From Coffea arabica (lineage: Eukaryota > Streptophyta > Magnoliopsida > Gentianales > Rubiaceae), in contig NC_092323.1 of assembly GCF_036785885.1 (NCBI RefSeq), forward strand, positions 992,001 through 1,056,000: 64,000 nucleotides of DNA. The letters are read 5' to 3'. Positions 18,821 through 57,866 of this stretch are shown here, piece after piece. How positions within the stretch are numbered: position 1 is the stretch's first letter; every line of letters begins with the position of its first letter. Under the pieces are notes generated by a model, which ran no database searches, had not been told where the DNA came from, and worked only from the letters and a program-made list of their open reading frames with translations. The position numbers and the translations under genes were made by a program.

Positions 18821-20776
18821 GGGTGTGTTTGGATCCCTTGTTTTTGGGGTTGTTTTTGAAAAACTGTTTTTCACATTTCAAATGCTACAGTAAATGTGTA
18901 TTTCCAAAACAACTCCAAAAACACCATATCCAAATATTATATCAAAAACAAATACATATGTATATTTCAATTATGTATATTATATATATATAAATATATA
19001 TATTATATTAATATAAATTGAAATATACAAATTGAAAATTATATATATTATATATTATATAAATATTTATATAAATTAATATTATACATAATATTGTATA
19101 TTATACATAATATAATATAATATACATAATATGTAATATTGTATACATACATGTGTAAATATTTATACATAATATATTATGTACATTATATTATAATATA
19201 TACATTATTAATGTATAATATTATTATGTACATTATTGTGTATAATAATGTATAATAATGTTATGTATAATATATAATATACATAACATGTAATAATGTA
19301 ATAATGTATATTATGTATAATATATTATATTATGTATATTATGTATATTATGTCTAATATTATATTATGTATAATATATTATATTATGTATATTATGTTA
19401 TATATACAATATTATGTAGATTATACAAATTGAAAATTATATATTATATATTATATATTATATGAATATTTATATAATGAAATATACAATAAATATTACA
19501 AATTGAAATATTATATAAACACCATATTTATAATATTATAATATTTATAATTAATATTAATGTATATAATATATTTTAAATATTTATATATTTATTTATA
19601 CATATTATAAATATTTTTATATATTTATATTTATATGAATATTATATATTATATAAATTATATATCATATAACATATATTATATATTATATATATTATAC
19701 ATTTATATAAATGTACATTTATACATAATATATATATATATTAATGTATATTTATAATATACATTTATATTATGTATTATATATAATATAATACATTTAT
19801 ACATTTATATTAATATACATAATATTAATTTTATATTTATACATAATATTAATACATTTGTACATTTATATTAATTATATTAATACATTTATACTTAATA
19901 CTAATATATATTATTAAAATTATAATTTATACATTTATATAATATTCAGTTGTAATTTATACATTTATAATAATATAGACTTATATGTTTATAAATATAT
20001 TTATATTATATATTATATATAATATAATACATTTATATATTTTTATATAAATACATAAATATATTTATTTATAAATATTTATAATGTATTATAAATGCAT
20101 AAATGTATATTTATATAAAAATATAAAAATTATAATTTATACATTTATACATTTATATAATATTCATCTATAATTTATACATTTACAATAATATACACTT
20201 ATACATTTATAAATATATTTATATTATGTATTATATATAATATAATAAATTTATAATACATTTATATATTTTTATATAAATATGTAAATATATTTATTTA
20301 TAAATATTTATAAATGTATTATAAATGCATAAATGTATATTTATATAAAAATATAAAAATTATAAATTATAAATTGTAATTTATACATTTATATAATATT
20401 CATTTATAATTTATACATTTATAATAATATACACTTACATATTTATAAATATATTTATATTATGTATTATATATAATATAATACATTTATATATTTTTTA
20501 GCGAATATATAAATATAAATATTTATAAATATTTATAAATGTATTATAAATGCATAAATGTATATAAAAATTATAAATTATAAAAATAACCAAAAATATG
20601 TTTTAAAAATACCTCTAAAAACAATCCAAAAAATATCTACAGTAAAAGTTTTTCATATAGTTTTTGAAAAACAACTCCAAAAACAACTAATCCAAACGGA
20701 CTTGTATTTCAAAAACAAAATGCTACAGTACTGTTTTTGAAAAACAACCCCAAAAACAGCTAATCCAAACGGAGCC
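18821..20776 (+). mobile_element. 1.95-kb TIR element with A+T-only minisatellite core, copy A
   Basis: The left end reads GTGTGTTTGGATCCCTTGTT, then GGGGTTGTTTTTGAAAAAC. The right end in reverse complement reads GGCTCCGTTTGGATTAGCTG, then TTTTTGGGGTTGTTTTTC. Both ends carry CTACAGTA words and form imperfect inverted repeats of about 150 bp. Between 18960 and 20590 the sequence is almost only A and T. Its right part is a tandem array of about 220-235-bp units starting near 19951, 20170 and 20403, each with ATAATTTATACATTTATAAT and ATTATATATAATATAATA. Copy B at 55902-57866 is the same length in the opposite orientation. There is no coding capacity. Flanks offer only a 3-4-bp candidate duplication (TCAG). 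It ends about 180 bp before the STR1 start codon. Confidence 0.65.
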
Positions 20777-33059: not shown

Positions 33060-35527
33060 CTAAGCATCATCAAGGGCAAGTACTCCAGGGAGAGATTTCC
33101 CTTCAAGAAGTTCCAAGCTTGCACCGCCACCTGTTGAAATATGGCTCATCTTGTCTGCAAGCCCCACCTTCTCCACAGCAGCAACAGAATCACCACCTCC
33201 AATGATTGCTGTCACTCCATTCCCGCTAAGCTCAGCCAATTTTTTCGCAATAGCCTGACACATACAAACAACATCAATAAAGCATTTATTTTTCATATAT
33301 GCAATAGCCATCAATGTACCTTTTAAGGTACAATTAAATACTACTATGTCAAACCTCTGTTCCTGTGGCAAATTTGTCATACTCGAAAACCCCCATTGGT
33401 CCATTCCAAATAATGGTTTTAGTGGCATCTAAAGCTTCACTAAATGACTTGATAGCATCAGGTCCAATATCCAATCCCATCCAACCATCAGGAATTCCGG
33501 AAGCTGGAACAACCTGCAGGATAAAATATAAAAAGCACCCTATATCCGATCACAACCTAACTACTTCAATCTATATCAATGATCTTGCCAACTATTTCGA
33601 CAAGTTTGGGCATAGGGGGGAAGAGAGTCAAAGATGGGTTTGATTTCTGACCTTGCTGTTTGCATCAGGAGCAAACTTGTCAGCCGCAACTACATCAGTG
33701 GGAAGCAACAGGGAAACTCCTGTGGCCTTGGCCTTCTCAATGAGGGATAGGGCGAGATCAAGCCTGTCCTCCTCCACAAGCGAGGATCCAACAGAGTGCC
33801 CTTGGGCCTTGTAGAATGTAAAGATCATTCCACCACCCAGTAAGAGGATGTCAACCTTAGCCAACAGTGACTCGATTACACCAATCTTGGTTGAAACCTT
33901 TGCACCACCAACGATCGCAGCAAATGGTTTCTTGGGATTTGCCACAGCTCCCACGAGATAATCAAGCTCCTGAGGAACGAAAGCACAGGGTAAAAGTTAC
34001 ACTGCAAGCGCATGTGCGCGAAGAGAGTAACACTCAAAAGTGAAAAACAAACCTTCTGCATCAGAAATCCAGCAACCGCAGGCTTCAAATACTGGGCTAC
34101 CCCTTCGGTGGAAGCATGGGCTCTATGTGCAGTTCCAAAAGCATCATTGACATACAAGTCTGCAAGAGAAGCCAGCTTCTTTGCAAATTCAGGATCATTC
34201 TTCTCCTCTTCTTTGTGGAATCTGACATTCTCCAGGAGCAAAACTCCACCTTCTGGCAAGGAAGCCACCAATTTCTCTACTTCTTCACCAATACAATCGT
34301 TTGCGATAATGACCTACTTGAGTGTGGATATAGAAGGTAAGTGCTGAGAGCCCCCTTAACCTGTGAAAATTAATGTAGAAAAACAGCAAAATTCGGAAGT
34401 ACGCTAAACAACAGACCTCCACCCCAAGGAGTTCAGAGAGTCTGGGAACAAGAGGCTTCAAGCTGTATTTTGGCGTGACACCTTTTGGACGTCCCTGACA
34501 CCAATATCCAGGCAAATACATCATTTCATTTGCTACGAAGCAAAAAGCTGACAATTACAAGAGCAAATAACCTCCATTCATAGTGAATACAAATAATATG
34601 GCATCCACGGAGTTCACCACTTCACCCCCAAGCAATTTATGTAAGGAATGTTCAAGATAATCCCGAGACGAGGCAATAGAAAAAGTACATTCGGATGATC
34701 AAATAAAAAAAGTTCATTCTTGTTTCCGATTGTTTTATTTGACATCTTATACTTGAGAAACTTGGATACTTATAGTGATTGAATCAAATATTATTTACTC
34801 CCCAAAAAAAAAAGAGCTTCATTCTATGCAAAAAAGAAGACCAGATGATCATATAATTGCCGGTTCACTCACTGTTTTTGTCTATTCTCCCCCTCACGTG
34901 TTTTGGGCTCACGGGGACAGCCTGGAGTACATTTTTGACTGCCCCTAACTGCAATAGCCAGTTGGGGCACCCTCCCTTCACTCAGGCCGGCTAGAGGGAG
35001 TAAAGAGAATTGACACATCAGTTGAGGAGTTAACCCGTAGCTTCGTAGCTCAAAAAAAGGGGGTCTAATGTCTTTTTTTGCAACAACACTTGATCTAACA
35101 AACATAAAGGCATTAGAAAGACATATTTGCAGAGCCATAAAATAAAAGCAAAATTTAGAATTGGAAAAAGGAAAAAAAAAAAAGAGAGGACCGAATAAAA
35201 TGAAATATTCATTGATCTAAAATTTCAAGTGATCAGGAAGAATGGTAGTAACATCTAACATGGGCTTAAAACAGGAAATGCGGCAGCAAAGAATATGTAG
35301 AAAATAGTAAGGGAGTGAAGATATATACGCACCAGGTGAGAAGCGAGGATGATTTTAGCGGAGCAGCCGATCAAGTAGTTGATGGTGGGGACAGCGGCTC
35401 GGATTCTGGTGTCGTCGGTGATGTTGAAGTTGTCGTCCAAAGGAACGTTGAGATCCACCCTCACAAAAACCTTCTTCCCCTTGAGATCAGCTTCCTTGAG
35501 TGACCCCACGCTCTTCTTCGTCGCCAT
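33060..35527 (-). CDS. PGK: phosphoglycerate kinase, cytosolic type (PGK-A)
   Basis: Six minus-strand exons: 35333-35527, 34417-34494, 34053-34313, 33652-33969, 33355-33513 and 33060-33254. They give 401 aa, the normal length of plant cytosolic PGK, with no transit peptide ([17 protein letters not shown]). Key motifs are intact: VRVDLNVPL near residue 22, SHL|GRPKG with the substrate-binding Arg, [52 protein letters not shown] and [14 protein letters not shown]. It converts 1,3-bisphosphoglycerate + ADP to 3-phosphoglycerate + ATP in glycolysis and the reverse in gluconeogenesis. Exon lengths 78, 261, 318 and 159 bp recur exactly in the other two PGK genes here, so the three share one ancestor. 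A roughly 108-bp tandem duplication and a 19-base G run lie upstream. Confidence 0.95.
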
Positions 35528-36727
35528 ACCTACTGTAATACTAGTTACTATTAGTACTACTTGCTATTCCGGGCGATGATTGAATCTGTAACCTGGATGG
35601 GAGGGGAGAACCAGCAAAAAAATTGATTGGATTACATGTTAGTAACTACTACTCCATGAGTAAACCAAAACTAACGGGACAAAAAATGATAAATTGATTG
35701 GTTGATTGATTTATTTAACTTCTAAACTACACCCAAAACAAAACCAAAGAAAAAAAAAAAAAAAAGAAAAAGAGAATACTAGGAAGCTCGAATTGAATGA
35801 GAGTTGGGAGAGACGATGACGATCAAGCAAACATACACACTGATGGATGAGATGCTGGGAGACTTATAACAGCTTCACTCTACTGTCCGCGGCTTAGGTG
35901 ATGGTGATGGAGGTTTTAAACTTCACTAATAAAAAGAGAGTGCCAATTACGTACACCCACTACTTACTCATATACTACTGCTAGTACGGTAGTAGTGGCA
36001 GACTAGAGTGGTATTGAGAATGGAAAGGAGAATCTGCTACCCAATGTTTTGTTTTCTGTCTTCTGGGTCAAGAAACTTTCGAACCATTCCGTCTTCGTCC
36101 AGCCAGTAGTTTTGGCTAGAATTTCAGAATGGAAAGGAGAATCTAGAAACTTCTGCTCCCATCTTTTGTTTTTGGGTCAAGAAACTTTCGAACCGTTCCG
36201 TCTTCGCCTAGCCAGTGGTTTTGTTTAGGCCCATTGGAACCAATCTCCCCCACCAATTTCCGCCACATTAGGGAGTCCAGGGCCGTCCATCCATTTCCAA
36301 GTACTCCGATCTAGTTTTTTTATGACATATCAAGAGCTGGAATGGATGGCTTGCTGCTGCGGTTTCCTGGTTCTATACGCTTTTATCGATCCTTCGGGTT
36401 TTTGCTTGTGTTGGGAGGGGGGGGGGGGGGGGGGGAGCCAGCAGAGGTTGTTTAGTTACCGGTTTTGCAACTATAATTTTCAATGTCCGAGAGTCGGTTC
36501 ATCATTCAGCGCGCTCAGCTACTACGATTTCAATTCTTTCCCAAATAACTCCTAGCTTCCAAAACGTTCCCAAGTCCGACACCCCATCAAAACCCCTTAT
36601 GTTTATTGCGGTTATGGATTCTCTCCACATAAAAATTTTGCTTCTTTTCTTTTTCCCCCAAAACATAAAATAAAATTACTCTTGGTACAAAATAAAACTT
36701 TGCTTACCATTTCGCTTTGTTTGTTCG
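35528..36727. promoter_or_regulatory. PGK-A upstream region
   Basis: 5' flank of the cytosolic PGK. It contains a roughly 108-bp tandem duplication (about 36017-36230) and a homopolymer of 19 G at 36417-36435 (C on the gene's coding strand). No gene seen. Promoter elements were not individually identified. Confidence 0.4.
36017..36230. repeat. tandem duplication of about 108 bp upstream of PGK-A
   Basis: The segment starting GAATGGAAAGGAGAATCT near 36018 repeats near 36126. Both units continue through GGGTCAAGAAACTTTCGAAC and CCGTCTTCG to CCAGTxGTTTTG, with small differences. It lies about 490-700 bp before the PGK-A ATG. Confidence 0.8.
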
Positions 36728-39150
36728 GATGATCTCACAAGGGCAGGCTAAAATCAGACCTTACATTCACCCAAATGCGCACATCGAAATCAACTCCTCT
36801 CTTCCTACATCTCTCCTTTACAAACCCCAAATACCATAAACAAAGGCATTAGGTTTAACAAGAATTTTAGTTTTGGTTTTTGCCTGCGCAGGAACTGGAG
36901 TAGTTTGGTCAAGAGCAATCATACTTGAGCTCCAAACTGGCACCATCCCCGGTGGACATTGGCCCACTAGCAACTCCAACCTTCTCCGCAACTGCAATCG
37001 AATCTCCTCCAGTGATGTTTGAGTCCCTTGCGCTCAGGTCTGCTTGCTTGCTTTTCAGTGGCCTGCAAAAAATATTTGCATTTCTATCGACAACATAATC
37101 TTCCTTTCGTTAACCAACCCCCCTCCTCCTCCTCCTCTCCTCCTTCCCCAACACCAAAACAAGGGAAAAAAAAGAGAGAAAAAACACGTTATTATAATAG
37201 TTAATGCAGGTTACAATAACGGTATTACGTGTCAAGTATTCCTCAAGAAAGGTGCAGGCCCAATCGCAAAACACGCAACCCTGCAACATAGTACAGTTGC
37301 AACGCCTTTCTCCGTTAGCAATTCTTCGTATAACAAAAGTATCTTGATCTCATTTGACCTCGTAATAGACAATCCAACCAGAGTGCTTCCATCTTGCCTT
37401 CTTTCCCCAACCCCCCAACCCAAGGGCTAATCTTATCCGACGCATTCATGAAAAATATGAAACCAAATTCCATATCCAAGCTTACAAGCCTCGGTTCTGA
37501 TGACAAATTCAAAGGCCTCCATCCAATATTACAGTTTTTGTAGTCTCCAAGACCTCACTGAATCTTTTGAGAGAGTCCAGTCCAATATCCCGTCTCATCC
37601 AGCCATCTGGAATAGCAGATGCCGGCACGACTTATGATAATAAACACAAACTTTCAGCTTTTCGACTCACTATTTGGGCCAAAAATGCACGAAGACCAAA
37701 GCATCTGAGATAATCAGCATAATAAGGTGCACGCAATTGAAGAATTTTAATCTTTTCAGAATGCACATAGAAAGTTCCAAAGGAGCAGCGCTTTAAGAAG
37801 CAGACCTGGCAGTTGGCATCAAGGGCAAACTTGCCTACAACAAACATCATCACTAGGCAGCAACAGGCTAACTCCTTTGGCCTTGGCCTCCTCAAGAAGT
37901 GATGTTGCAACATATGACTTGTCCTCCTCTACCAATGACAATCCCACTGAAAGACCTTGAGCTTTGTAGGATGTGAAGATCATTTCCCCACCCAAAAGCA
38001 AAATGTCAACCTGCTCCAAAAGCAATTCAATCCCTCCAATCTTTGAGGAAACCTTTGAACCACCCACACCAGCAGCAAATGGACTTTTTGGGTTTGAAAC
38101 GGCACCAACCAGTGAACCTAACTCCTATAACAGCAGCAGAACAAATTAACATCAACTGACAGGAATCTCAGAAGCAAGCAACAAATACTGGCAACATCAA
38201 TCAGGTAACATGGATTCACAATGTGGCATTTTAAATGCACAAGATTGTTTGTAGAATAATAGCTTAGATGAAGCAAGCAAACCTTTTGTAAGAGGAACCC
38301 CCTAACTGAAGGTTTCAAGAATTTTGTGACACCTTCTGTGGAAGCATGCGGTCTGTGTGCAGTACCAATGTAGCATTAACATGTGTATCTTTTAATGAGA
38401 CAAGCTTCTTTGAATATTCAGGTTAACCTATTCAACAATTCTAAAGGAGAAAGAACGCACGTACAGCAAGATTTAATCTTTCATAACAAAATGAAGTATC
38501 ATATGACCAACTTCTTTTTGCTTTAAAGAAAAGAAAAAAAATTATTTTAAGTGAATTGTAGCCTACTTTGAGAGGACATACCTGAATACCAAGTAATTTT
38601 GATAAGCACGCGACAAGAGGGGCCAGACTGAAATTTGGAGTCACACATTTTGGGTGGCCCTGGAAGCGTGGAGAGCTTTGTTCATTTGTGAATCAAATCA
38701 AGATGAATGCAATGAAAGACATGATCCAAAAGAGAAGACAATTATGTGCATGCAAGAATTAGGCAACCAACCTTGTTCATAACCAAATCATCCAAAATAT
38801 CTAAGGAAATGATAACTCTAAGTTGCAAGATCATACAAAGAAAATATCAGCTTCATACTTTCTTTTTTAAATTCATAATCCTTGAATCTAGATACAAACC
38901 GGGATTTCTTTTCTTAGTGGGAAGCTGGCTCATCCTCACCCAACAGTCCAAAAGAATAATCGTAGTGCTCCATGTAAACAACCTTGAAGACTGAATACAT
39001 CCATAAGACTAACACATAAACTTTCAATAAATTCAAACCTGTTAAATCATTGTGCCAAGTTTGAAACTTTATATAAAATTAGTTTGTAGTGTAGTTAAGC
39101 AGCAGCATTGAAAGCATGAAGCATAATTAATTTCACAAAATAGGATATAT
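36728..39150 (-). pseudogene. PGK pseudogene from segmental duplication of the plastid PGK
   Basis: Remnants in correct order and spacing match the plastid PGK at 47005-49832: exon 6 (about 36880-37065), exon 5 (37510-37635), exon 4 (37806-38125), exon 3 (38282-38420) and exon 2 (38582-38661). Introns and 3' UTR also match (for example, GAAGCTGGCTCATCCTCAC near 38920 and 49005), so this is a DNA-level duplication, not a retrocopy. Exon 1 with transit peptide and start is absent; homology fades near 39080-39150. Exon 3 is truncated and breaks off soon after its GTAHRAHAS-coding part, and exon 6 lacks the stretch for LLEGK. Exon 4 is frameshifted near DDVCCRQ and the first glycine-rich loop is altered ([10 protein letters not shown]). 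It cannot make PGK. Confidence 0.9.
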
Positions 39151-39323: not shown

Positions 39324-41462
39324 CTAGGTGCTTTTCCTTCTCATGTGGTGTAGAATCAGAGGTACTCCTTCAAATAGATGTGACAAGTAATTCTCCAAAT
39401 CCTCAGACGTGTACTTTATGTACTTTCCAGCATGTTTGCCACTCTCTAGATGACTCCCAAATCTCCCCATGAAGGAACGATAAGCTGGAATCAACTTCTC
39501 TGAAATAGATATCTTAAGCTCATCTCTAAGTTGCAAGTCAGGGACCTTCCAAGCCGTCTGTATCCTATAAATATCTTCAAAACAAGCATTGAAATTCTTA
39601 AACCTCTCCTTCAAAAGCACCTTCGACGCATTACTTGAGCTCCCTCCAATCCCTTCGTCCTTCAAACAAGACAACACCTTGCTCCATGATGCTCTAAGAT
39701 AACTTGTTGCATGCTTTCTAATCTGACCACGACGTTTCCGGATCCAATCATCACCCAAATATTTTGCAAGATCCGAATCTTTAACCTTCTGAACAATGTA
39801 AAGTATATTATTCATCAGAAACACAAATTTCAGCCCTTCCTCCTCATACATGCTTGACTTCTCGTCAAGGTTCAATTCCAAGGACAAGATCAAAGACAGC
39901 AAACGCAGTCCTATTGGACTCATGTTTTTGGCCTCCAGCTCTTCACCATCATTAACCACCTTTGCGTCCTTGGCTTCTGCTTCTTTTGCATCCTCACATT
40001 CAGCTTCCAATAATGCATTAAGTGTATCACTGTAATCAACGAGCAACTTCACATAATTCATTACATAACGCGTCAAGGGGTGAATCTCACCATTTTGAAT
40101 TGGCCTCCTTGAGCTCTCATTCTGAACAGCATTCTGAAATTCAACAAAAGTCCCAATGGCTGCCTCACCCAACCCATCCACAACTCCCTGAGCCTCACTG
40201 TATACCATGTCACCTGCTTCTTTATCACTGCAAAGCTTCTTCAAATCAGGCAAAACATCTTTAAGTGCATCATACATATCAAGAATTCTGAACAACTTCT
40301 CTGATGACCTTCTACCAATAGCCACTGCTTCCCCGAAATTTAATAGCTGCATCACACATCCCTTGGTGGCCTCAATAAAGCAAACATCTTCAATAACATC
40401 CAAACCAGAAAAAATCTCCTCGCAGAGGCACTTTTCAGCGGTTAACAATATCCTGACCACAATTTTCAGCGCGTGAATCCATTTTTTCATTTTCTCATCC
40501 AAAGACTTCCACTCTATCCTCTGAACATCCTCGATACTAAGCTTCTCAACCCCTAAAATTGACATACACTCATCCAAGACATCACGACGGACGCTCGAAT
40601 ACACCTGACAACACTCCTTCTCATATCCTGCACGTATCATTCGGTCAGCAATTCCTTTGAGATCTAAAATAGCATCAGGGTTTACCAAATCATGAAATAA
40701 TTCATCACTCCCCACACTCCCCTTGGCCACATGGCGATTATATCTGCAATAGACAATGCCGTCGCCATCACCCTCATTGTCATTGCCATCTCCATCATTA
40801 TCGCCATGATCAGCAAAACTGCAAACCCCACTGCTGCTAGACTCCAAATCAGGAATCTGTGTAACTCCATCTGCAGGAGTGGAGGAGGAGTCAGAAGTGA
40901 GGCGAACCAAGAACTCATCGATCCTCTCAACATCCAGAGGAACCGTGTTCTGGATTAAGGTGTGACGAAACTCCTCTTCCAACCTTGACATAGCCAACTG
41001 CAGAGCATTCTCCACCCGCTCCAATTCCACACTTTCCAAAGCCAAGTCCTCCATCAACTGTATAACATAATCAACAGCCTGAAAATAATCATCAATGACA
41101 AACTCATCGCTATTTGAGTCCCACCGGTGGATCAGCTCCTCAGCGGCCTCCAATTGCAAATCGGCTTGACTGTTGGGGGAAAAAGACGACATGTTGTCAT
41201 CCCACCCACCAGCACCACCGCTGCCGCCAGCCACGACAGAAGGAGAGGAAGTTGAAGAGGGCGACGCAGCTGCAGCTGCGGCAGAAGCTGACGATGTCTG
41301 CATGATGTTAGACAGATTAGCAAAACGGGCGTCGATTGACGAAAAAAGAAGAATCATATCATCTGTGTTAATGTTTGCTGAAGAGTTAAGGCTCTTGAGG
41401 ATGTGTTGGGCAGCTGCTAAGACTTTTTGCTCTCCATCAGTACTACAAGTTGTCACCGCCAT
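39324..41462 (-). CDS. EXO70 exocyst subunit, intronless
   Basis: A single 712-residue open frame starting [19 protein letters not shown]. An upstream in-frame Met at 41576 adds 38 basic, low-complexity residues and is less likely. The N-terminal helical rod includes [11 protein letters not shown] and [14 protein letters not shown], followed by a Ser/Ala/Gly linker. The C-terminal Exo70 domain has [54 protein letters not shown] and a final [11 protein letters not shown]. Plant EXO70 genes are commonly intronless. The protein binds phosphoinositides and tethers vesicles to the plasma membrane as part of the exocyst. The N-terminus resembles EXO70D-type members, but subfamily assignment needs a tree. 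It lies between PGK-derived loci on the same strand and is functionally unrelated to them. Confidence 0.93.
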
Positions 41463-42029: not shown

Positions 42030-44473
42030 CTATTCAAGCATCTTCACGGGCAAGAATTCCAAGCTTGCAGAACCACCTTCTCCACCTGTTGAGATATGGC
42101 TCATCTTATCAGCAAACCCTGCCTTTTCCATAGCAGCTACATAGTCACCACCTCCAATGATCGTTGTCACTCCATTGCCACTAAGCTCTGCCAATTTTTT
42201 TGCAATAGCCTGAACATGAAAAGATCATCAAACACAAAATTTTACTTCATACGCAAAAGGCAACAGATGTACGCTACTGCAAAATCCGAGACAAATGATA
42301 CCTCTGTTCCCGTGGCAAATTTGTCAAACTCGAAAACCCCCATTGGTCCATTCCAAATAATGGTTTTAGTAGTATCTAAAGCTTCAATAAATGACTTGAT
42401 AGCATCAGGTCCAATATCCAACCCCATCCAACCATCAGGAATTCTAGAAGCTGCAACAACCTGCAAAAAAGCTTGGGTCCTTTTCAAAACCATAAAAAGC
42501 AACCAATTCTTACAGTATAGAATTAGAAATTAATTACTTCAACCCATATCAATGACTTGAGATATAACATACAGCATCAACTAGTTAGACAACAAGTGTC
42601 AATTTGTTTGATCCTAGTGGGCGGAGAGAGAGGGGGGTGAGTTTTGATTTCCAACCTTGCTGTTTGCATCAGCAGCAAACTTGTCAGCCACAACTACATC
42701 AGTGGGAAGCAACAGGGAAACTCCCTTGGCCTTAGCCTTCTCGATGAATGATAGGGCAAGATCAAGCATGTCCTCCTCCACAAGTGAGGATCCAACAGAG
42801 TGCCCTTGGGCCTTATAGAATGTAAAGATCATTCCACCACCCAGTAAAAGGATGTCAACCTTATCTAACAGCGACTCGATCACACTAATCTTAGTTGAGA
42901 ACTTTGAACCACCAAGAATTGCAGCAAATGGTTTCTTGGGATTTGCCACAGCTCCAACGAGATAATCAAGCTCCTGAGGCAGGAAAGCACAGGACAAACG
43001 TTACTCTGCAAATGCATGTGCCATGAAGAAAGTGAAAGGAGTCGCTCAACTGAAAAACCAACCTTCTGCATCAGAAATCCAGAAACAACGGGCTTCAAAT
43101 ATTTGGCTACTCCTTCGGTGGAAGCATGGGCTCTATGTGCAGTTCCAGAAACATCATTAACATACAAGTCTGCAAGAGAAGCCAACTTCTTTGCAAATTC
43201 AGGATCATTCTTATCCTCTTCTTTGTAAAACCGGACATTCTCCAGGAGCAAAACACCTCCTTCTGGCAAGGAAGCCACTAATTTCTCAACTTCTTCACCA
43301 ATACAATCATTTGCCATCTTGACCTATTTGAGTGAAGATATAGAAGGTTTGCGAAAGAAAGCCCCTTAGCCTGTCAAAATTAAGGGGGGAAAGGAAAGAA
43401 AAAACAAAACATGGAAGTACACTTAAACAACAGACCTCAACCCCAAGGAGTTCAGAGAGTCTAGGAACAAGGGGCTTCAAGCTGTACTTTGGGGTGACAC
43501 CTTTTGGGCATCCCTGACATCAATATCCAGGCAAATACATCATTTGATTTGCTCCATGCCAAAAAGCTGACAATTACAAAAGCTATATAACCACCATTCA
43601 TAAGCAAAACGCAAGCAGGACCTCTAAACTCCAGAATGGAAAATAAATAAGGGGATAAAATAATTATGCTATCCATGTAATACTTGTTACCCAAGTAATT
43701 TACATGAAAAATGCTCAATAAAATCCAAGACAAGACAATAAAACCAAGTTCATTGAGGGCCACTCATTTCTATCAAAAAAGGTTATACGTTTACAAGTAA
43801 AGTTTGAACTGTGCAACAGTTGTCGTACTAAAATATGATCATCCATTTTTCTTTTTCTTTTCTTTTTTTTTTGGCATACAATGAACCATTTTTTTTTTTT
43901 CTGTGAAGTATGTAATCATTATAATTTGCAAGTATCAAAGTTTCTCTAGTATAAGATGTCCAATGAAACAATCGGAATAATAATAACAAATAAAAGCCAA
44001 ATTTTGAGGCGAATAGAATTGCCATTAATTTGAAAACACATTTTGGCGTAACATTGAACGACGTAATTGCAGAATCATACATTAGAAGAAAAAAAAAGAA
44101 TCAACTACAATCAAATTGGCATTGACCTCAAACCGACTGTTCTGAATAAGTAGTAATAACATGGACTAATACAGGAAATATTACAGCAATGGATATCTAT
44201 GGAAAACGCTCCAAAACGTTGAGAAGGTAATGTAGACAAGTGTACAGATACTAGAGAGAGAGAGAGAGAGAGACGAACGAGGTGAGAAGCGAGGATAACT
44301 TTAGCACCGTAGGCGATCAAGTAATTAATGGTGGGGACGGCGGCGCGGATTCTGGCGTCGTCGGTGATGTTGAAATTGTCATCCAAAGGAACGTTGAGAT
44401 CCACCCTTACAAAAACCCTCTTCCCCTTGAGATCAGGTTCCTTGAGTGATCCCATGCTCCTTTGTGCCGCCAT
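42030..44473 (-). CDS. divergent cytosolic-like phosphoglycerate kinase paralogue (PGK-B)
   Basis: Six minus-strand exons: 44279-44473, 43436-43513, 43063-43323, 42656-42973, 42302-42460 and 42030-42209. All junctions are phase-consistent and the frame is open for 396 aa without a transit peptide ([17 protein letters not shown]). It is very similar to PGK-A over most of its length, but several otherwise invariant motifs differ. GRPKG is GCPKG, losing the Arg that contacts the 3-phosphoglycerate phosphate. DAFGTAHR is [13 protein letters not shown] is GGSKF, and GGGDSVAA is GGGDYVAA in the nucleotide-phosphate loop. [14 protein letters not shown] is rearranged to [17 protein letters not shown] with a shortened C-terminus. 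The catalytic scaffold is preserved, but activity is doubtful. It could be an early pseudogene, a regulatory or moonlighting protein, or an allele with sequence errors. Confidence 0.8.
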
Positions 44474-45272: not shown

Positions 45273-45317
<45 letters not shown>

Positions 45318-45849
45318 ACAATGATAATAATGGGTTTTTTCAAGATTCCGATATCCATTTACGGATGTTTGGTACCCGCCGCTATGAATGGGAATGCCTC
45401 CTTTTTTCTTTTTTCTTTTTTTTTTAATTATTTGTTTCTTTTTCCATCCTTCTTTCCTGCGTTGATTTGCAGGAAGTTCAATCGAAGCGCTGACAGAGTA
45501 CAAAATCATTTAAATCAAATCCCCTCGCTAACAATTAATATCCTTTTGGATTCCGAATATTTCACCAAAGAATCAAGAACCTAATTTCTTAGCATCCAAA
45601 GTAATTAATTGTTTTTCCTGGGATTATTTCTAGCTAAACCATCTCCTAGGAAGCCAATAGATAAAGATCTTCATGGGGAGATTTGTGAATCATCAATTGC
45701 CTAAGAGATTCACTATCAATTATGTGGATAAATTGGCCAAGCCAATCTCTTTGGATTCCAACCTATTTCCATTTCTGTAAGCAAGGGAAGAAAATAGAGA
45801 GGGAAAGAACTTGGAAGGGATGGACAGCAGCGTAGAGGAAAAGAGAATA
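44474..45849. promoter_or_regulatory. PGK-B upstream region with 43-base C homopolymer
   Basis: 5' flank of PGK-B. A GC-richer stretch at about 44730-45010 (GCCGTCCGCGG, GGGATCAGACCCCGCGG, CCCTTGCCGCCTACGGGTTA) stands out from its surroundings and is not explained by any feature I recognise. A homopolymer of 43 C lies at 45275-45317 (G on the PGK coding strand). No gene seen. Confidence 0.45.
45275..45317. repeat. poly(C)43 homopolymer
   Basis: Uninterrupted run of 43 C preceded by 8 A. The length could vary between individuals or be an assembly estimate. The G-rich strand could form a quadruplex. Confidence 0.85.
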
Positions 45850-46085
45850 TTTTACTGTAGCAGAGTTTTTAAGGTATATTTTGAGATATTTTTAGAATAT
45901 ATTTTGGAATATTTAAGAGTAGTAGAGTTTTTATAATATATTTTGGGATATTTTTTAAACATTTAAAAACATTTAGACTACTCACTTTTTAGAGTACCTT
46001 TTAGAGTAATTTTTAAAAATTTCTATAGTATTTGAAAAACTGATTTTTGAAAAAATTGATAGATCCAAACAGAGAGCTATTGATA
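45850..46085 (-). mobile_element. truncated MITE remnant, sister of the copy at 2150-2396
   Basis: The reverse complement begins CTCTCTGTTTGGATC and runs through TCAGTTTTTCAAATA, AAAAGGTACTCTAAAAAGT, AAATATTCCAAAATAT and AACTCTGCTACAGTAAAA. That matches the TTI1-intron copy almost word for word. This copy keeps the terminus that the other lost, and lacks the GGAGCC terminus. Non-coding. Confidence 0.6.
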
Positions 46086-47004: not shown

Positions 47005-49832
47005 CTACACAGGAACTGGAGTAGCTTCATCTAGAGCAATGACACCAGGAAGTTGTTTGCCCTCCAAAAGCTCCAAACTAGCACCACCCCCGGTGGATAT
47101 GTGGCTCATCACACCAGCAACTCCCACCTTCTCCACAGCTGCAACTGAATCCCCTCCTCCAATAATGGTTGTGACTCCCTTCCTGCTCAGGTCAGCTAGC
47201 TTCTTCGCAGTGGCCTGCAAAAAACATTTTAACGCATACACAAGCTATTTTAATACTTAATGCAGGGATCACAACGGAAGTGCTACAAGTCAGGGATTCC
47301 TCAAGAATGGTGCAAGCCCAGTCGTAAAGCCCGCAACTACGCAACACAATACAGTTGCAACCCCGCTGTCTGTTAACACTTCTTTGAAAAACAAATGAAA
47401 CCAAATTCTGTGTCAAAGCATTTTTACCTCTGTTCCGACAGCAAATTTGTCAAATTCAAAGACTCCCATAGGTCCATTCCAAATTACGGTTTTAGCAGTC
47501 TCCAAGACCTCACTGAATGTTTTGATTGAGTCCGGCCCAATATCCAGTCCCATCCAGCCATCTGGAATGGCAGACGCTGGCACAACCTATGATAATAAAC
47601 ACAAACTTTCAGTTTTTCAACTCACCATTTCTGCCAACAATGCATGAAGACCTTAGCATCTTTGATAATCAACATCAATTTCGATCAAGCAATGAAGACA
47701 TTGATCTTTTACAGAATGCATAAAATGCGTCAAGAGAAGCAAAGCTTTAAGACGCAGACCTGGCTGTTGGCATCAGGGGCAAACTTGTCCGCAATAATAA
47801 CATCACTGGGCAGCAACAGACTAACCCCTTTGGCCTTGGCCTTCTCAAGAAGTGATGTTGCAAGATCTAACTTGTCCTCCTCTACCAATGAAGAACCCAC
47901 TGAAAGACCTTGAGCTTTGTAGAATGTGAAGATCATTCCTCCACCCAATAGCAAAATGTCAACCTTCTCCAAAAGTGATTCAATCACTCCAATCTTTGAG
48001 GAAACCTTTGAACCGCCCACAATGGCAGCAAATGGTCTTTTCGGGTTTGAAACCGCACCAACCAGATAGTCCAACTCCTATAACAGCAGGAGAACAAATC
48101 ACCGCTAGTTTACAAGAACCTCATAAGGAAGCAACAAATACTGGCACCATTAATCAGGTAACGTGGATTAACCAATCTGGAAATACAAAAGGCACAAGAT
48201 TATTTGCAGAATGCTCCATACATTATGATAGGTTAGATGAAGCACGCAAACCTTTTGTAAGAGGAACCCAGCAACTGAAGGTTTCAAGAATTTTGTGACC
48301 CCTTCTGTGGAGGCATGCGCTCTGTGTGCCGTACCAAATGCATCATTAACATAAATATCTGCTAGAGAGGCAAGCTTCTTTGCAAATTCAGGTTCATTCT
48401 TCTCTTCCTCCTTATAAAACCTCACATTCTCAAGAAGAAGAACACCACCGTCAGGAAGGGAAGCCACCAACTTTTCAACCTCTGGGCCAATGCAGTCATC
48501 AGCCTTAACAACCTATTCAACATTTGTAAAGGAGAAGGAACGCATGTAAAACGACAGTCAGTCCTTGGTAACATAAGGAAGTATCATCAGGAACCAAAAA
48601 AAAAAAAAAAGAATAAAGATTGTTTTGAGCAATTTGCAGAAGGATATACCTGAATACCGAGTAATTCTGATAAGCGGGGGACAAGAGGGGCCAGGCTGAA
48701 TTTTGGAGTCACACCTTTTGGTCGGCCCTGGAAGCGTGGAGAGCATTTATCATTTTAAAACAAAGCAAGATGGGTGCTAGCCTATAAGAGATATCAACAA
48801 AAGGAGAAGGCGATCATATACATGCAAGAATTAGACAACCAACCATGTCCATAACCAAATCATCCAAAATGTGCAAGGAAATGGTACGATCAAACTTGCA
48901 AGATCATATTAAGAAAATACCAACTTCGTACTTTACTTTATTTATTATTATTTTTTAAAAATAATCCTTGAGAAGATAAGCAGCCAAGCTCTCTTTGGTT
49001 AGTGGGAAGCTGGCTCATCCTCACTCAACAGTCCAAAACGATCATCATACTACTTTACATACCCATTCTTGATGACTGAATACATCTAATACAAAGGGCA
49101 CATTAATGTTCAATTGATTGAAATAAATGTGCAAGTTTGAAACTTTAGATTTAAATCCGCAAGACAGAATCAGGAATAAGATGTGTGTGTGTGTGTGTGT
49201 GTGTTTGTGTATTAATTACAAGCGAAATGAAAAATGAGTTCAAAGAATTCCAAGATAGATTTAAGGGCAGAAAAACAAAATGGGAGGTCAGTCTGGCGTC
49301 TAATTCAAACAACGGGCAGTTCCAACGACATCGCTTGAACATGGATTATGAAAAATACAGCACAGGTGGGAGAGTGAAAAGCTTGGAGTAAAGTGGTCTG
49401 GTGACTCACCAAATGACTGGAGAGGACAACCTTAGCTCCGTTAGAAATCAAATGCTTGATAGTGGGGATAGCAGCTCTAATCCTAGTATCATCAGTGATG
49501 TTCTGGTTGTCGTCGAGAGGGACATTGAAATCGGCCCTGACGAAGACGTTCTTGCCCTTCAAGTCGGCGGCGGCGAGGTCCCCGACACTCTTCTTGGCCA
49601 TTGAGGCAACGCCTCTGATAGGCTTGGCAGAGGCTTTGAGGGATCGGAGCTTGGTGGCAACATGGTGGGTAAAAATTGGGTCGGCGGCGGCAGCAGCGAA
49701 GCCTAGGCGGCGACGGGAAGTGTTGGGGAGGAAGCGGGTGGTGGGGACAATGAGGGAGGAGGGTCGAGTGGTGGAGGATGATGAGGTTGGGGAAACACCA
49801 CGGAAAGTGTGCGGTGCTGCTGCGGACGCCAT
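47005..49832 (-). CDS. PGK: phosphoglycerate kinase, plastid (PGK-C)
   Basis: Six minus-strand exons: 49410-49832, 48650-48727, 48252-48512, 47760-48077, 47428-47586 and 47005-47214. They give 482 aa, the usual length of chloroplast PGK precursors. Exon 1 adds about 75 residues of Ser/Thr/Arg-rich, acid-poor transit peptide ([20 protein letters not shown]...) ahead of [20 protein letters not shown]. Motifs are intact: [74 protein letters not shown] and the C-terminal extension LDEATPVPV. It phosphorylates 3-phosphoglycerate in the Calvin cycle and works in plastid glycolysis. It is divergent from the VIR3-like gene at 51019, 1.19 kb apart; from memory the same neighbours occur in Arabidopsis. 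A 22-base TG-type microsatellite lies in intron 1 (49181-49202). Confidence 0.95.
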
Positions 49833-55901: not shown

Positions 55902-57866
55902 GGGTTCGTTTGGATTAGCTGTTTTTGGGGTTGTTTTTCAAAAACAGCACTGTAGCATTTCGTTTTTCAAATACAAGTTCGTTTGGATTAGTTGTTTTTG
56001 GGGTTGTTTTTCAAAAATTATATAAAAAGCTTTTACTGTAGATGTTTTATGGATTATTTTTAGATGTATTTTTAAAACATATTTTCGAGTATTTTATAAT
56101 TTATAATTTTTATATTTTTATAACAATATATAATTATACATTTATAAATAAATAAATTTATATAAAAATATATAAATGTATTATATTATATATAATACAT
56201 AATATAAATATATTTATAAATGCATAAATTATAAATGAATATTATATAAATGTATAAATGTATAAATTATAAATTATAAATTTTATATTTTTATATTTAT
56301 ATACATTTATGCATTTATAATACATTTATTAATATTTATAAATAAATATATTTAAATATTTATAAATAAATATATTTAAATATTTATAAATAAATATATT
56401 TAAATATTTATAAATAAATATATTTGTACTTTTATAAATAAATATATTCATATATTTATATATAAATGTATTATATTATATATAATACATAATATAAATA
56501 TATTTATAAATGTTTAAATGTATATTACTATAAATATATAAATTATAAATGAATATTATATAAATGTATATTATAATTTATAATTTTTATGTTTTTATAT
56601 TTATATACATTTATGCATTTATAATACAATTATAAATATTTATAAATAAATATATTTATATATTGATGAATAAATATATTTATATATTATTCTAAATAAA
56701 TAAGTGTATTATATTTATAAATAAATTTATATATTATATATAAATAAATAAGTGTATTATATTTATTTATTTATTATATATTATATTTATAAATAAATAT
56801 ATAAATGTATTATAAGTGTATTATATTATATATAATACATAATATAAATATATTTGTAAATGTATAAATGTATATTATTATAAATGTGTATAAATTATAA
56901 ATGAATATTATATAAATGTATATTATAATTTATAATTTATAATTTTTATGTTTTTATATTTATATACATTTATGCATTTATAATACAATTATAAATATTT
57001 ATAAATAAATATATTTATATATTATGTATAAATAAATAAGTATATTATATTTATAAATAAATTTATATATTATATATAAATAAATAAGTGTATTATATTT
57101 ATTTATTATATATTATATTTATAAATAAATATATAAATGTATTATAAGTGTATTATATTATATATAATACATAATATAAATATATTTATAAATATATAAA
57201 TGTATATTATTATAAATGTGTATAAATTATAAATGAATATTATATAAATGTATAAATTAATATATTATAAATATATATTAATACTATGTATAAATGTATT
57301 AATGTAATAAATATAAATGTATACATTTTTTAATATTATGTATAAATGTGTAATTAATATTATGTATATTAATATAAATGTATAAATGTATTATATTATA
57401 TATAATACATAATTTAAATGTATATTATAAATATGCATAAATATATATATTATGTTTAAATGTACATTTATATAAATGTTCAATATATATAATATATATT
57501 ATGTATATATTAAATATATATAATATATAACATTTATATAAATGTATAATAACATATTTATAATATATATAATTTATATAATATATAATATTTATATAAA
57601 TATATAAAAATATATTTTATATAAAGTAAAATATTTATAATATGTATAAATAAATATATTTAAATTAATATAATATATATATCCTATACATAATTGAAAT
57701 ATATAAATTGAAATAAACATATTAAATATGTATTTGGAGTTGTTTTTGATATATTGTTTGGATATTGGTGTTTTTGGAGTTGTTTTTGAAATACACATTT
57801 ACTGTAGCATTTGGATTGTGAAAAACAGTTTTTCAAAAACAGGCCCAAAAACAAGAATCCAAACGG
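55902..57866 (-). mobile_element. 1.95-kb TIR element with A+T-only minisatellite core, copy B
   Basis: The left end reads TTCGTTTGGATTAGCTGTTT then GGGGTTGTTTTTC, duplicated about 75 bp later. The right end in reverse complement reads CCGTTTGGATTCTTGTTTTT and continues CTGTTTTTCACAATCCAAAT and GCTACAGTAAATGTGTATTT, matching the left end of copy A. The element is therefore inverted relative to copy A. The core 56085-57690 is almost purely A+T and contains about four or five repeats of a unit including TATTATATATAATACATAAT and AAATTATAAATGAATATTAT, the reverse complement of copy A's unit. Length is about 1965 bp against 1956 for copy A. Non-coding. It ends about 460 bp before the CBP80 start codon. 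Confidence 0.65.

Follow-up and report, generated by a model that had tools for sequence, protein, structure and literature searches.

PGK-B (42030..44473, minus strand), a damaged cytosolic-type phosphoglycerate kinase gene of six exons, is probably a spare copy that lost its constraint recently and now stands at the first stage of pseudogenisation. It belongs to an array of four PGK loci, all on the minus strand, that were detected by tblastn, with PGK-A and PGK-B as queries, within the 64-kb window, which is the whole stretch of DNA analysed here. The sequence-only reading had left a choice among a pseudo-enzyme, a new role and the first stage of decay. Decay fits best, in view of the frameshifted C-terminus, the degraded intron-1 donor and the random-like placement of the replacements, and the low dN/dS is no proof of a non-catalytic role.

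The PGK array and its probable duplication history

PGK-A (47005..49832, minus strand), a plastid-type gene encoding 482 aa with an N-terminal extension, and PGK-D (33060..35527, minus strand), a canonical cytosolic-type gene without this extension, are both intact in sequence. PGK-D is the twin of PGK-B, while PGK-C (approximately 36720..39074, minus strand) is a plastid-type remnant and the twin of PGK-A. The plastid and cytosolic compartments are putative. We take the window for plant nuclear DNA, given its intron-bearing PGK genes of both types, whose nearest solved relative is 7zy7, the Chlamydomonas enzyme. Between PGK-B and PGK-C lies an EXO70-like gene (39324..41462, minus strand) with one open frame, which scores 431 bits for Exo70_C.

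The exons of PGK-B (44473-44279, 43513-43436, 43323-43063, 42973-42656, 42460-42302 and 42209-42030) and those of PGK-D (35527-35333, 34494-34417, 34313-34053, 33969-33652, 33513-33355 and 33254-33060) all read from the minus strand. The 396-codon product of PGK-B matches the Pfam PGK family (PF00162) over its full length (residues 11-390; 520 bits, cut-off 27), and PGK-B is a phosphoglycerate kinase by descent; the PGK family was the sole match in the Pfam search, with no added domain. The rest of the protein had been described as close to PGK-A, in an account silent on PGK-D. Over 375 shared codons, however, PGK-B is nearer to PGK-D (89.1% identity) than to PGK-A (79.7%), and PGK-D, not the plastid-type PGK-A, is its right comparator. 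The use of PGK-A as the sole comparator was dropped, as it is plastid-type and saturated (A-B dS ~2.9).

PGK-B and PGK-D share an alignment of 1.8 kb at 78.9% identity, which begins at the end of intron 1 and runs beyond the stop codon, and a second one around the start codon at 69.6%. PGK-A and PGK-C align at 73-81%, and their order and strand match those of the B-D pair. The distances of introns 1-5 overlap between the A-C pair (K=0.50, 0.39, 0.24, 0.34 and 0.33) and the B-D pair (K=0.71, 0.30, 0.26, 0.35 and 0.58), with the intron-1 values of both including poorly alignable stretches. The simplest reading is that A-B and C-D are two copies of one two-gene block, a plastid-type PGK followed by a cytosolic-type PGK, which would have arisen by a single tandem duplication. 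After it, A and D would have been retained, and their plastid-type and cytosolic-type counterparts, C and B respectively, would have become redundant.

PGK-C is broken and would have decayed thoroughly. Exon 3 bears a 115-nt deletion and, like exons 4 and 6, single-base indels; the intron 5 donor and the intron 4 acceptor are lost, and no exon 1 was found. Its differences from PGK-A, summed over exons 2-6, are spread fairly evenly over the three codon positions (34, 39 and 52), and those between PGK-B and PGK-D are uneven (25, 17 and 65). Among the 10 private changes of PGK-D (e.g. Y124H, K261T and F329Y), none falls at a fully invariant column. With PGK-C broken, PGK-B damaged, and PGK-A and PGK-D intact in sequence, the four loci look like a case of reciprocal decay.

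Other features of the window include two unusual uninterrupted runs, 43 C at 45275-45317, ~800 bases upstream of the PGK-B start codon, and 19 G at 36417-36435, both of which are possibly assembly artefacts. The segments 18827-20771 and 55907-57864 form an inverted duplicate pair of ~2 kb with 74.7% identity, perhaps a non-autonomous mobile element; all open frames in the 18827-20771 copy are of at most 89 aa. An A+T-rich element of ~190 bp occurs at 2164-2347 and 45846-46041 in opposite orientations (88.8% identity), the latter copy between PGK-A and PGK-B, and clear terminal inverted repeats were looked for in this element and not found.

Damage and altered residues in PGK-B

The frame and all splice sites of PGK-B had been described as intact. 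The 396-codon frame is indeed open, with no internal stop, but its new C-terminus is the product of a frameshift, the only one in the gene and at its extreme end. At the end of exon 6 (42030..42119, minus strand), a 9-nt in-frame insertion expands STGGGAS; after it, in comparison with PGK-D, a deletion of net 28 nt shifts the frame, and the new stop is TAG. The 28 nt are missing after GCAAGCTTGGAA, where PGK-B has TT in place of the 30 bases that separate GGAA from CTTGCCC in PGK-D. PGK-D ends in GCAAGCTTGGAACTTCTTGAAGGGAAATCTCTCCCTGGAGTACTTGCCCTTGATGATGCTTAG and PGK-B in GCAAGCTTGGAATTCTTGCCCGTGAAGATGCTTGAATAG. The old ending, LALDDA* in PGK-D, is still legible in the +1 frame of PGK-B as LAREDA*.

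All five introns of PGK-B retain GT-AG. Even so, the splice sites are not all intact: the intron-1 donor (44273..44281, minus strand), CTC|GTTCGT, is nearly devoid of predicted U1 pairing. Although the score is crude and the donor GT itself is retained, this is the weakest of the 15 donors of PGK-A, PGK-B and PGK-D, at 0.1 kcal/mol, as compared to -8.9 for TTG|GTGAGT in PGK-A and -4.5 for CTG|GTGCGT in PGK-D, the second weakest of the 15. At positions -1 and +3, both A and D have G, whereas B has C and T, respectively. Intron 1 of PGK-B is likely to be spliced poorly. As compared to its twin PGK-D, which is intact in sequence, PGK-B carries damage to both the frame and, by prediction, splicing, as would be expected of a pseudogene, mild in relation to that of PGK-C.

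The changes reported earlier in the conserved motifs are all present. In GRPKG, now GCPKG, R67C (43508..43510, minus strand) is encoded by the second codon of exon 2 (CGT in PGK-D, TGC in PGK-B) and aligns with yeast Arg65, in a column invariant among 81 reference PGKs. In DAFG, now DVSG, A149V (GCT to GTT relative to D) and F150S (TTT to TCT) both fall at invariant columns. In the nucleotide-phosphate loop, S360Y (TCT to TAT) turns GGGDS into GGGDY, and Tyr360 aligns with Ser353 of the Geobacillus enzyme. To these we add V203F (GTT to TTC), which was absent from the earlier list; it was placed by the motif GGSK-F-STK in the alignment, adjoining the GGSK lysine, between the GGSK and STK lysines.

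The references comprise 77 of 80 loci, nearly all titled cyanobacteria, together with 7zy7, 1php, 1vpe and yeast 3pgk. PGK-B departs from them at 10 of the 104 invariant columns (R67C, A149V, F150S and V203F, with six more in the hinge and tail), while PGK-A and PGK-D depart at none. Among the 180 columns of the 97% level, the departures number 19 in PGK-B, 2 in PGK-A and 3 in PGK-D. The departures of PGK-B exceed the chance expectation for a working PGK. S360Y lies outside the fully invariant set because yeast has Thr there. An earlier count with 80 references gave 130 invariant columns with 14 departures in PGK-B and none in PGK-A; with yeast included, coverage judged more strictly and the alignment refined, the columns fell to 104 and the departures to 10. 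K4Q, T40A and S360Y were thereby dropped from the fully invariant set and remain at the 97% level.

Much of the substrate site persists. Among the seven residue positions that bind BPG or 3PG (Asp23, Asn25, Arg38, His62, Arg65, Arg121/122 and Arg168/170), PGK-B keeps six, with Cys at Arg65. Both lysines, the Asn316 equivalent, the GGG and the Asp352 equivalent are also retained, so that in the loop GGGD(S/T) only the Ser/Thr is changed, to Tyr. PGK-B departs from the pattern of active PGKs at Arg65, GGGD(S/T), the STGGGAS hinge and the LLEGK-LPG segment. Arg65 is described as belonging to a set of arginines with two tasks, to bind the 3-phosphate and to make the salt bridges of closure (PMC7729029), and is listed among the BPG-binding residues (PMC3900376). 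Ser353 of the Geobacillus enzyme is described as hydrogen bonding with the alpha-phosphate (PMC7729029). In the human enzyme, Thr375 is among the residues that bind ADP, loop L14 has a hinge point at Gly394, and the C-terminal end folds back to become part of the N-domain (PMC3900376). By our own motif reading, Thr375 and Gly394 would correspond to the GGGD(S/T) and STGGG positions. Any protein made from PGK-B would most likely have no activity or very little.

Selection on PGK-B and placement of its replacements

Neutral dN/dS had been named in advance as an outcome that would speak against the interpretation of PGK-B, and over the whole history of the gene it was not observed. Over the 375 codons that PGK-B and PGK-D share ahead of the hinge, dS was 0.291 and dN 0.052, with a ratio of 0.178 (bootstrap 0.12-0.25). 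In an equal-branch codon model (wB 0.27, wD 0.17), wB=1 was rejected (p=1.2e-8) and wB=wD was not (p=0.18). An unconstrained three-branch model (wB=1, p=0.002; wB=wD, p=0.08) was discarded as not identifiable, with a D branch of 0.009 and an omega of 7.4, because PGK-A is saturated. Over the time since the duplication as a whole, PGK-B was not neutral, and it was probably constrained for most of its life. The low ratio would mostly reflect the time before the damage, and is no proof of a present non-catalytic role.

The placement of the replacements is different in kind. Private replacements were polarised with the window's own plastid-type copy, a saturated paralogue (A-D dS ~1.9), and bacterial references. 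Columns conserved to at least 97% hold 9 of the 20 in PGK-B, where 8.56 would be expected at random, 1 of the 46 in PGK-A and 1 of the 10 in PGK-D (Fisher p=4.7e-5). At the fully invariant columns, the counts are 4 of 20, 0 of 46 and 0 of 10, respectively (p=0.004). The contrast is weaker at the 90% level than at 97% (B 13/20, A 13/46 and D 5/10; Fisher p=0.016), where PGK-D alone is not distinct from random. The private replacements of PGK-B are placed as if at random with respect to conservation.

A simple and rough mixture puts the relaxed fraction of the time since duplication at 0.135. This fraction predicts 3.7 replacements in the 89 invariant core codons, where 4 were observed, and 2.5 disabling changes (0.7 stops and 1.9 frameshifts), where 1 was observed (no stop and one frameshift; the probability of at most one is 0.28). 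The latter probability falls to 0.05 for a relaxed fraction of 0.25 and to 0.0009 for 0.5, and the value at half the time relaxed disfavours a long neutrality of PGK-B. If ~9 of the PGK-B changes preceded the relaxation and were D-like, ~11 are left with ~8 conserved-site changes (hand binomial ~0.05), which is slightly above random and not predicted by pure drift.

The probable course of events is as follows. For the greater part of its history after the duplication, purifying selection would have acted on PGK-B, and its constraint would have been lost recently, in about the last seventh of that history by a crude estimate. The losses of this late phase would be Arg65, the Ser that contacts the nucleotide, the normal form of hinge loop L14 and the C-terminal stretch that folds back onto the N-domain, and PGK-B may by now be without function. 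Several observations run counter to decay: PGK-B has no internal stop, its lone frameshift lies at the very end, its dN/dS of 0.178 is far from neutral, most substrate residues are retained, and wB=wD was not rejected.

Alternative readings and known systems

A retained pseudoenzyme, in which catalysis was lost, the altered loops are adaptive and PGK-B serves in partner, ligand or nucleic acid binding, is unlikely, though the most probable of the alternatives. The open frame, the low overall dN/dS and the retention of much of the substrate site would all suit it, as would the small surplus of replacements at conserved columns (by hand arithmetic); moreover, predicted-inactive PGK-like proteins with a cell location are described in trypanosomatids (PMC4106842, PMC7729029). 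However, conserved sites are hit as often as random placement would have it, the period before the damage would by itself yield a low dN/dS, and the C-terminal frameshift and the degraded intron-1 donor both speak against retention. Pfam matched the PGK family alone, unlike the multidomain PGK-like proteins of kinetoplastids. Slightly less probable still is the specific form in which PGK-B, after the block duplication, would be a young plant pseudoenzyme with a regulatory or scaffolding role, keeping the PGK fold and a partial ligand site as a plant counterpart of those kinetoplastid proteins.

We also doubt, to a marginally greater degree, that PGK-B still encodes a working cytosolic PGK, of low activity or better, in which the changes are relaxed yet tolerable. 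It does retain most substrate residues, and a solved yeast chain, 1qpg, has Gln at the Arg65 position; since this chain has a solved structure, the loss of Arg65 alone does not stop folding. A literature search for R65Q gave no match. Against activity stands the joint effect of the four changes at columns invariant among the 81 references, the Ser to Tyr change at the nucleotide phosphates, the 3-residue hinge insertion and the missing C-terminal segment. That a normal gene only looks altered through errors of assembly or sequencing is very improbable despite the unusual 43-base C run upstream, as the replacements sit amid silent changes, the B introns are 22-45% different from those of PGK-D, and CGT to TGC and GTT to TTC each take two changes per codon.

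Outcomes akin to that of PGK-B are already in print. Maize ZmPGK4 (Zm00001d043194), called a pseudogene, has like PGK-B lost catalytic motifs beside intact paralogues; it is said to be without key motifs and domains (PMC7761438), whereas PGK-B is nearly full length with an intact twin in the same array. The kinetoplastid 'dead' PGKs, or PGKL, are likewise described as paralogues that lost substrate residues (PMC7729029, PMC4106842). In TbPGKL, Asp replaces Arg65, where PGK-B has Cys; TbPGKL is described as multidomain, with most phosphate-binding side chains lost (PMC7729029), whereas PGK-B is single-domain, recently damaged and retains most of them. Two tomato genes that carry the name PGK, Solyc07g066600 and Solyc07g066610, have consecutive locus numbers and are presumably neighbours; the present array has four loci instead of two, a doubled pair in which each kind has one damaged copy. 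Among the matches listed in the literature search, no title describes PGK genes of a plant in tandem or in decay, and neither the maize nor the soybean paper on the PGK family uses the word 'tandem' in its main text.

The array would be a compact natural record of a doubled plastid/cytosolic isoenzyme pair, in which one of each kind was kept and one of each is decaying, at different stages: PGK-C long broken, PGK-B just starting. With its intact twin and introns side by side, PGK-B may serve as an internally controlled example of the death of a housekeeping enzyme gene. It is also a warning that a probably dead enzyme can lie behind an open frame and a strong family score, here 520 bits.
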